A stretch of 34,403 nucleotides of DNA from assembly GCA_024635485.1 (NCBI GenBank), contig JAGXIV010000039.1, positions 1-34,403 of the forward strand, written 5' to 3'. The stretch comes from a bacterium. Its GTDB lineage: Bacteria > Patescibacteriota > Gracilibacteria > BD1-5 > UBA6164. A model generated the notes under the pieces. The model had not been told where the DNA came from and made no database searches. It saw only the letters and a program-made list of their open reading frames with translations. A program made the translations under genes and the position numbers. Every line of letters starts with the position of its first letter. Within the stretch, counting starts at the first letter, position 1. Positions 4,290-6,872 of the stretch are shown here, in pieces.

Positions 4290-5330
4290 TTATGAAAATA
4301 TTTCACTTATTTCTTTATATCTTTTGGCTGTTACCTCTCGAACGAGTTCAATAATTTGTACTGCTTGTTTATTTTGTTCTGGATTTTCTTTCCAATAATC
4401 CGCAACATAATCTCGAACGGGTTGCTTATCTTTTGCAATTGGTTCATCTCATTCTACTACACTTTGAGCCTCCCAAAGTCGAGAAGAATCCGCAGTACAT
4501 ACTTCATCAATCACGTGAAGCTTACCTCTAGAATCAAGTCAAAATTCAAATTTTGTATCTCAAAATACAAGTCACTTTTCTTGAGCATGATTATTTGCTG
4601 CATTGTACATGTTGAGACTATACTGTTCAATTTGAGCTGCAATTATTATTCCTGAAAGATGTTGAAATCATTGTATATGCAACCATTCATTTAAGACTTG
4701 AACCATACTATCAAAAGTAATATTTATGTCTCACGAATCTGATTTAGTTGATGGAGTAAATAATGCTTTACTAAATTTACTACACTTTGTAAGTCCTATT
4801 CAAACAAATTCTCAAGTTGCTAATTCTCAAGTTTCTTCGTTATATCCTTTAAGAGCTGAGCCATACATATATCATCGAACAATTGCTTCAATTGGAAGCG
4901 CTGTAAGTTTTTTAACTACTACAGATGATTCAAGAAGTTCAGGTGGAAAATCTTCTGGAAATTGAGTATTAGAAAGTTGATTAGGAATATCATCAGTATC
5001 TTTGTGTTCTGCAAAATATTTGAACCAATAATTTGCCATATGAGTGAGAGCTTTTCATTTTCACTCTATAAGACCTTTATGAATAACATCATGAGTTGAT
5101 ATTCTATCTGTAGCAATCATAATAAGGCACTTAGGATTGTCTGGATGCTCAAATGTTTCTCTCACTTTACCAGAATGAATATGCTTATATCTTTCAGGAA
5201 GCTTTGGTGATCATTCTTTTATTTCTCAAGATAGTATTCAAGATGTAAGTTCTACTACCTCAGGATTTCTACTCCCTCATTTTCGAACAGAGGTAAATAT
5301 ATGTCACTGTTCTCAAAATTCTAAAGCCAT
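4290..5330 (-). CDS. purC: Phosphoribosylaminoimidazole-succinocarboxamide synthase
   Basis: SAICAR synthase joins CAIR and aspartate with ATP in purine synthesis. The 346-residue product shows the family motifs HSGKVRETFE, IATDRISTHDVI, MYGSALKGY, the FTPSTKSDSGDINITF region, VFGDTKFEFG and VIDEVCTADSSRLW. It is longer than the ~240-residue bacterial form and closer to the longer ~300-residue type. Many UGA codons read as Gly (for example in LEFGEQGHIF and RGYMYG). No other purine-pathway gene lies in the window, so it is a solitary gene between dnaK and the small-RNA region. It could serve a salvage or partial pathway. Confidence 0.93.
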
Positions 5331-5392
5331 AATTACTTTTAAAAAAATATTATATATATTTATAATGTAAATATTAAAAATATCAATTAATT

Positions 5393-5420
5393 TTGACTTA
5401 TTAGATAAAATAATTATAAG
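5393..5420 (+). promoter_or_regulatory. Promoter for small RNA A
   Basis: TTGACT (5393-5398), 16-bp spacer, TATAAG (5415-5420). No protein gene follows on this strand for nearly 900 nt. Confidence 0.55.
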
Positions 5421-5426
5421 TATATA

Positions 5427-5625
5427 AGCTGACGATTTTGTATTGAATTCCACCTCAATTGCACTATCGAAAGCTACACAACTTGGAAATTTTGTTCGAT
5501 TCTTTACGGACAATACGGCAGCTTTATAGCTTGCCTAAGAATTTTCCAGACAACGCATCTCCCTAAAGGGGGATGCACCACTTACATGCAAAGAAATCCC
5601 ACAGTAAAATGCGGGATTTTTTAAT
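5427..5625 (+). ncRNA. Candidate structured small RNA A (unassigned)
   Basis: A unit of about 190 nt between a good promoter and an intrinsic terminator (stem AAATCCC...GGGATTT plus a T tract, 5594-5625). It contains several hairpins: TTGTTCG/CGGACAA, a GGCAGCT/AGCTTGCC stem with one bulge, and a 9-bp GCATCTCCC/GGGGGATGC stem (one U-G pair) with loop TAAA. No open frame of meaningful length fits. I found no tmRNA ends, RNase P core motif, or SRP apical loop, so the class is unknown. The size would also suit a 6S-like RNA, but the ends do not pair. Confidence 0.45.
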
Positions 5626-5645
5626 TTTTAAATTATATACAACAT

Positions 5646-5805
5646 AAAAGCCCCAAAAGGGGCTTATTACTTATCTCTTTGGAGCTCTTGAATAAAATTC
5701 AGGCTCAACAAAGTAAATTGGGTGAGTGGAAGACTAACTATCATTCAGAAACGTGCTTTGGATGATCGTCCAACATTTTTCTCTAGACTGTCTGTCTCCA
5801 CACTC
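5646..5805 (-). ncRNA. Candidate structured small RNA B (unassigned)
   Basis: A minus-strand unit of about 160 nt from a near-consensus promoter to a terminator (AAGCCCC-aaaa-GGGGCTT, 5648-5665, followed by T on the minus strand). The 5' part folds into a rod: GTGTGGAGAC pairs with GTCTTCCACTC, enclosing a TTGGA-cgatca-TCCAA hairpin. A second GAGC/GCTC + TGAAT/ATTCA hairpin follows. Only tiny frames (12-25 codons) are open. The class is unknown. Confidence 0.45.
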
Positions 5806-5811
5806 TAATAT

Positions 5812-5839
5812 ATTATAAATAATAATTATATCTTAGCAA
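5812..5839 (-). promoter_or_regulatory. Promoter for small RNA B
   Basis: Minus strand: TTGCTA, 16-bp spacer, perfect TATAAT. The predicted start is near 5805. Confidence 0.6.
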
Positions 5840-5854
5840 ATATTTTTAATAAAG

Positions 5855-6142
5855 AAAAAAGGCTTGCTTGAAGCAAGACCTTTTTTTAAATCAGAGAGAG
5901 AACATCAACAGAATAATCTGGAGTTCAATCTATCTTGAATTTCAACCGAGCGCAGCAAGCAACTCGGGAAGCCAGATATCTCTCCTCCCAAAGAGATATC
6001 GGCATACTATGCACTAAATGATATCATCCTCAGATACATAAGTGGCATAGATTCTATTTCTAATCAAGCTGACCAGCCAAAACTGGGTACAACTCAACTG
6101 GTGAGATTGTTCCTTCTTATATGAGATTGGGGCTCAGAAGGA
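5855..6142 (-). ncRNA. Candidate structured small RNA C (unassigned)
   Basis: A minus-strand unit of about 290 nt with a consensus -35 and a strong terminator (GGTCTTGCTT-ca-AGCAAGCC with flanking A and T runs, 5855-5887). Predicted helices, 5' to 3': TCCTTCT/AGAAGGA; CCAGT-ttt-GGCTGG; ATGCCACT/AGTGCAT; a perfect ATATCTCT/AGAGATAT stem closed outside by GCC/GGC; and CCGAG/CTCGG. The density of perfect stems is far above background. No family motif (RNase P, tmRNA, 6S, SRP) was recognised. An open frame runs through part of it but lacks a start and protein-like composition. Confidence 0.5.
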
Positions 6143-6147
6143 CACGT

Positions 6148-6175
6148 ATCTTATTAATAAAATATATTCTGTCAA
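6148..6175 (-). promoter_or_regulatory. Promoter for small RNA C
   Basis: Minus strand: consensus TTGACA, 16-bp spacer, TAAGAT. The predicted start is near 6142. Confidence 0.62.
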
Positions 6176-6262
6176 AACTTTTTTGACCATTATGTATTTT
6201 ATCCTCATCTAATTTTTTGAATGAGAGGTGTAAGAAAATATACATTGTTTTTATGAGGTGTA

Positions 6263-6314: not shown

Positions 6315-6872
6315 ATGTTTCGATTTATTTTCTTCATACTGTTTATTGGATTTCTCATCTATGGATTTTTTAATATCTATTGAAATATTCAAGATGAATC
6401 AAATACCAATGAAAGCTATAATAGCGAGATAAACTCATTAGTAGCTCAGTATGCGAATCAAAAAGAAGAAGAAAGTGAATATGTTATATATTCTCAAGAA
6501 TTTCTTGGGGATAGATCCTATGATAGTAATAATATTTGAACCCTTGAGCCATATTTTAGTGAAAGTGATTTTAATCAAAGAAATTCTCAAAGCTATGAAA
6601 ATCCTCTCTACGTTTCTTCCTCTCAAGTACGCCTTCCAAGCAATAAGCTGAGTGTAAGCTTGTGAAGTTCTCCTACATGACGTACCTGAACAAATTTTAA
6701 TACATTTCAAAATACTTCTTGATTTGACTCTTGACTTAGTTTCACCGATGAAAGTTGTGCTGGTATTATTTATGATCCTTGTCTCAAAATTTGAGACTTA
6801 GATACAGAGGGATGAAACTTTCGACTTATAGGTTCTGGAACTCCAATCTATACTGACCCTTCACAACTTTAA
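6315..6872 (+). CDS. Membrane-anchored or secreted protein of unknown function
   Basis: A 185-residue product. Residues 1-22 (MFRFIFFILFIGFLIYGFFN) form a hydrophobic signal anchor; the rest is hydrophilic, rich in Ser, Asn, Tyr and Gly, and should lie outside the membrane. A stretch near residues 115-150 is Gly/Ser/Thr-rich (SLGSSPTGRTGTN), with many of the glycines written UGA. Two cysteines (SCAGIIYDPC) near residue 156 could form a disulfide. No family recognised. It ends just before a bidirectional terminator that also serves nhaA. The heavy UGA use marks it as native, in contrast to nhaA beside it. Confidence 0.65.

Follow-up and report, generated by a model that had tools for sequence, protein, structure and literature searches.

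The island between purC and gene X

The window, that is, the whole stretch of 34,403 nucleotides that was analysed, is a contig of the 1.14-Mb MAG G000 (Candidatus Gracilibacteria), whose genes are cleanly readable only if TGA encodes glycine. The bacterium is uncultured and probably has a parasitic lifestyle. A gap of 0.98 kb separates purC, directly past which lies dnaK, from a gene here called X. The following features can be distinguished (the strand is given after the coordinates):

4290-5330, minus: purC (SAICAR synthetase)
5393-5420, plus: promoter of A, TTGACT-16-TATAAG, read from the sequence (-35 TTGACT 5393-5398; -10 TATAAG 5415-5420; spacer 16 nt)
5427-5625, plus: RNA A, about 199 nt, predicted to fold into four hairpins and a terminator hairpin
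5594-5622, plus: intrinsic terminator of A, AAATCCC...GGGATTT, by eye and from the fold
5646-5805, minus: RNA B, 160 nt, with a long 5' hairpin of 82 nt, a second hairpin and the terminator
5648-5665, minus: intrinsic terminator of B, from the scan
5812-5839, minus: promoter of B, TTGCTA-16-TATAAT, from the scan and identical in G005 (-35 TTGCTA 5839-5834; -10 TATAAT 5817-5812; spacer 16 nt)
5854-5886, minus: intrinsic terminator of C, from the scan; 30/32 conserved in G005
5855-6142, minus: RNA C, about 288 nt, predicted to fold into a chain of about seven hairpins
5900-5926, minus: 3' hairpin of C, GAACUCC...GUUGAUGUUC, with the counterpart GAGCUCC...GUUGAUGCUC in G006
5975-6000, minus: UUUGGGAGGA hairpin of C, predicted to place UU[GGGA]GG in its loop; 8-mer common to the units of G001, G004 and G008
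6148-6175, minus: promoter of C, TTGACA-16-TAAGAT, from the scan (-35 TTGACA 6175-6170; -10 TAAGAT 6153-6148; spacer 16 nt)
6171-6187, no strand: inverted repeat GTCAAAA-n-TTTTGAC overlapping the -35 of C
6315-6872, plus: X, a small protein with a predicted membrane anchor, in divergent orientation to C

The sequence-only reading had placed in this gap no protein gene and three RNA units, each with its own promoter and intrinsic terminator. Both statements hold. The longest frame runs opposite C for 97 aa from a TTG and requires code 25; the counterparts of C conserve nothing comparable. A conserved peptide in C itself was rejected, as these counterparts show no consistent frame. Sigma-70-like promoters were found by direct reading and by scan. 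In the scan, the island had 16 promoter-like and 4 terminator-like sites, where shuffles gave 7.1 +/- 2.3 and 0.5 +/- 0.9, respectively. The terminator of A is absent from the scan list because its loop exceeds the length allowed by the scan. The extent proposed for C (about 6142-5855) stands, and A and B do converge, although their terminators lie about 28 nt apart instead of 20 nt.

The units are rich in stems, as had been claimed. Compared with 200 dinucleotide shuffles per unit, A (-63.8 kcal/mol, z -7.56), B (-52.7 kcal/mol, z -4.95) and C (-91.1 kcal/mol, z -4.0) each beat all 200. Their G+C content is 40-41% versus 15-26% in the other intergenic gaps of the window, where strong folds are short and terminator-like.

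In an Rfam search, no family reached its cut-off in the island, and relaxing the limit to E 10 brought up no credible match. The exclusion of tmRNA and RNase P, neither of which matched there, is reinforced by the detection of both elsewhere in the genome, and 6S and SRP RNA are likewise absent from the island at E up to 10. The matches listed by e-value (STnc370, SpF, MicC and others) were discarded as chance, terminator-driven hits. No match to phages or plasmids was found for the island. Three unassigned structured small RNA genes are still the best description of the island.

Expected conservation in relatives was borne out to a different degree for each unit: it is present for B (in one congener), partial for C (position, promoter and loops) and lacking for A. 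RNA A has no homologue among 46 relatives and was found only in G000. Its neighbour purC is an orphan as well, missing from the congeners save for one marginal partial match. Relative to G005, purC and A separate dnaK from B; apparently, purC was inserted together with RNA A between them. Short BLAST matches of A, B and C in other relatives were set aside, being mostly coding or low-complexity DNA, and homologues may be missed through MAG binning and incompleteness.

In the congener G005, RNA B is flanked by dnaK and X and is identical at 147/160 positions (92%). A contiguous stretch of 154 nt is identical at all 154 positions, and comprises the 5' hairpin with its linker (97 nt), the promoter (34 nt) and the upstream spacer (23 nt), whereas in dnaK the two species agree at only 67% of third positions and 57% of four-fold sites. 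The 13 substitutions fall in the 3' part of B; of the 55 pairs that the G000 sequence alone predicts, 52 are intact (chance about 0.03), and one terminator pair has changed from A-U to G-C by a compensated double change. When the dnaK loci of relatives were scanned with a covariance model of B, no other copy turned up, and a 20-mer of its hairpin had 0 matches in 84,980 genomes and in viral contigs. To judge from this pattern of identity, B would be either under extreme constraint or part of a short stretch exchanged between the two species, and its near-identity could reflect recent exchange instead of constraint; either way, B appears to behave as a unit.

The covariation anticipated for the island turned out to be thin: in B, the compensated terminator pair and two changes tolerated as G-U; in C, one change in the 3' hairpin (GAGC/GCUC to GAAC/GUUC, by eye). 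It is minimal because B is represented by two sequences and the bodies of C are too diverged.

The protein encoded by X combines a hydrophobic stretch at its N-terminal end with a cysteine motif (CAGIIYDPC) conserved in the C-terminal part; it evolves fast, belongs to no Pfam family and has homologues only in the genus.

Counterparts of RNA C between dnaK and gmk

The DNA downstream of dnaK was compared among relatives for units located before X or gmk. A recurrent gene order, dnaK - variable cargo - (X) - gmk - trmD, was seen, and six genomes (G001, G004, G005, G006, G007 and G008) have, in front of X or gmk, a positional counterpart of C with the same orientation. These counterparts are bounded by a promoter and a terminator, and are folded (z -2.3 to -12.6). 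Their bodies are rewritten from genome to genome: sizes range from 136 to 583 nt and, apart from weak similarity, most of them cannot be aligned by BLAST. The promoter regions, on the other hand, are similar between species (E up to 3e-11), and the inverted repeat GTCAAAA-n-TTTTGAC supplies the -35 at this locus, exactly in G000, G001, G004 and G008 and as a variant in G007. Among 20 examined loci with this repeat, a clearly structured unit lies downstream only between dnaK and gmk and at one site in G005. As a regulon marker the repeat was rejected, given this distribution and the second copy in G000, which sits within coding sequence.

Some similarity among the bodies can still be traced. 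The best four local alignments of 78 unit pairs all involve C units of the dnaK-gmk locus (P 2.5e-4 to 6e-3, as single-pair, uncorrected values). The C units of four genomes (G000, G001, G004 and G008) have the GC-rich 8-mer UUGGGAGG in common, always within the predicted mini-structure UU[GGGA]GG; in a shuffle control, any 8-mer was present in four units in 8/300 shuffles and a GC-rich one in 0/300. Shared 8-mers are more often unpaired (0.41 versus 0.35, P 0.014). C has one GGGAGG hairpin, whereas G004 and G008 have two. Loops that are complementary to each other, CUCCUCCC and GGGAGG(AG), were found within G001 and within G008, and none was seen in G000. Finally, the minimum free energy is lower on the strand inferred from the promoter in 11 of 13 units, which argues for RNA rather than DNA hairpins.

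Other observations were made in the same genomes. The dnaK to gmk interval (L118, L149-L154) is a variable-gene hotspot with a different cargo per genome (TehB-type methyltransferase, transporters, hypothetical proteins). At an unrelated locus of G005, a structured unit (L162:1501-1760, plus strand, z -7.9) has a GTCAAAA-n-TTTTGAC promoter and has GGATGATG in common with the counterparts of C. In L184 and L186, 1-2 kb before trmD, there are near-perfect GC-rich palindromes (e.g., CCCCTCTCCTCGAGGAGAGGGG) that lie in-frame inside protein genes of other Gracilibacteria; as palindromes within genes, these structured stretches were rejected as RNA units.

An EcpR1 domain and an alpha-r14-type loop

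In G008, the 583-nt counterpart of C includes an EcpR1 domain (RF02500) that scores 84.3 bits (E 5.5e-12), above the cmscan gathering cut-off of 60 bits. This domain is located at L152:5495-5609 (plus strand), and the same DNA is present in L182 (CALDZK010000004.1). Its loop 1 reads UUCGCCGCAUCU where the invariant sequence is UCCGCCGCAUCU (11/12 in loop 1), and 20/21 nt agree over C16-G36, the best value for this region in a random 1-Mb sequence being 15/21. The motif UCCUCG occurs in the second loop, and the two stems, although rewritten, stay paired through compensated changes. The G008 unit thus resembles EcpR1 of Rhizobiales in its two-hairpin domain, C16-G36 region and UCCUCG loop, but here the domain sits within a 583-nt chain and belongs to a distant phylum, and it is lacking in A, B and C of the window, which gave no EcpR1 match at the gathering cut-off or at E up to 10.

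EcpR1 represses dnaA and gcrA, with whose mRNAs its loop 1 base-pairs (PMC4414408). A match covering loop 1 in the plasmid collection lies, in S. meliloti, between a response-regulator gene and rpmG, a position that agrees with the published site of ecpR1 downstream of divK-pleD (PMC4414408).

The alpha-r14/NfeR1 (cuckoo) RNAs present an unpaired CCUCCUCCC seed on hairpins with unrelated stems (PMC10746234). This sequence occurs once in the second unit of G001, in an apical loop, and the second unit of G008 has CUCCUCCC. Unlike the alpha-r14 RNAs, there is one such hairpin per unit and no Rfam match, and C of G000 has the complement, GGGAGGAG; the pattern of three hairpins, each with a CCUCCUCCC loop, is absent from A, B and C. 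The second unit of G001 also contains an MmgR/suhB-like segment (L154:3281-3349, plus strand), CUCCCU-AGACUU before the terminator, with an E of 0.08, below cut-off.

Proposed base-pairing loops and alternative explanations

We favour, at a little under even odds (about 0.45), the reading that A, B and C each represent an independent non-coding RNA gene, and that C is the local member of a fast-evolving family of RNAs that would base-pair in trans. Predicted from sequence comparison, the members of this family would be lineage-restricted hairpin-chain RNAs, encoded between dnaK and gmk-trmD and transcribed from a promoter whose -35 region is palindromic; in these RNAs, rigid, freely exchangeable stems may present short seeds on apical loops. 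Candidate seeds are UUGGGAGG in C and, in the units of relatives, CUCCUCCC and the EcpR1-type loops. Such seeds would pair with the translation-start regions of mRNAs or with complementary loops of partner small RNAs. The retention of loops on changed stems, as in the EcpR1 and alpha-r14 small RNAs, favours trans-acting base-pairing RNAs. Shine-Dalgarno motifs are rare upstream of starts in the window (2 of 34 inspected start codons), so seeds of the Shine-Dalgarno type would lack obvious targets inside the own cell, and would perhaps pair with other loops (CUCCUCCC with GGGAGG) or with RNAs in a different cell. Regulatory RNAs of the Candidate Phyla Radiation (CPR) seem to be little known; a literature search on them found nothing relevant.

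The last of these options leads to an unlikely explanation in which hairpin-chain RNAs of an epibiont copy or sponge the seeds of host small RNAs and, once transferred, act inside the host. Consistent with it are the EcpR1 loops on rewritten stems in G008, the identity of the CCUCCUCCC loop in the second unit of G001 to the alphaproteobacterial alpha-r14 seed (PMC10746234), the complementarity of the GGGAGGAG loop of C to that seed, and the scarce use of Shine-Dalgarno leaders by G000 itself; moreover, a published account (PMC8080830) describes a CPR relative that preys on other bacteria. Nevertheless, no RNA export route is known, the loops of the window match no host small RNA, a single module (EcpR1 in G008) scores above a family threshold, and a simpler account would be that it was acquired horizontally for internal use. 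A 44-nt match of C to Ensifer at 80% was rejected, as it lies opposite a coding frame. Slightly more doubtful is the full version, in which an epibiotic or predatory CPR bacterium would maintain a hypervariable RNA locus whose loops mimic (EcpR1, alpha-r14) or sponge (UUGGGAGG) small RNAs of proteobacterial hosts, with C, and perhaps A and B, as its local form. Chains of near-perfect hairpins, together with the loops CUCCUCCC and GGGAGG(AG) that are complementary within G001 and within G008, could also suit RNA-only scaffolds assembling via kissing loops, in the manner of GOLLD, ROOL and OLE, elaborate bacterial non-coding RNAs with no protein product that form homo-oligomers (PMC12286853). 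Those RNAs are, however, far larger than units of 136-583 nt, conserved in sequence and classed in separate Rfam families, to none of which the island or the counterparts show a match, and with no complementary loop pair in G000 itself this reading seems quite improbable.

We consider it just as improbable that the hairpins are DNA-level marks of an integration or recombination hotspot, with the RNAs incidental: the cargo between dnaK and X does differ in each genome (purC, TehB-type methyltransferase, transporters or none), but every unit has an oriented promoter and terminator, the transcribed strand folds more strongly in 11/13 units, and neither an integrase in the neighbourhoods examined nor a shared core site was found. 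Untranscribed or decaying gene remnants that fold by chance would account for the quick turnover of bodies, for the restriction of A to G000 and for long frames, which arise by chance under code 25; such an origin is very unlikely in view of the z of -4 to -12.6 in most units, the conserved promoter, the near-identity of B in G005 and an EcpR1 domain that exceeds a curated cut-off. Least plausible of all is a protein sponge like CsrB/RsmZ, with GGA in hairpin loops. The likeness consists of hairpin chains with GGGAGG in the apical part, in four units; against it, there are just one or two GGA loops per RNA, and none of the 47 relatives has CsrA (PF02599), although the control genomes expected to have it did match, hence a CsrB-like sponge is unlikely.

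The locus is a fixed address at which the position and promoter of an RNA gene persist across a genus while its body is rewritten, and thus offers a natural series for learning which part of a small RNA is constrained. The EcpR1 domain in G008 links a CPR bacterium to a cell-cycle small RNA of Rhizobiales and makes RNA-level manipulation of hosts directly testable. If such manipulation were true, it would mean an RNA-level arms race between bacteria, in which the stems are free to diverge.
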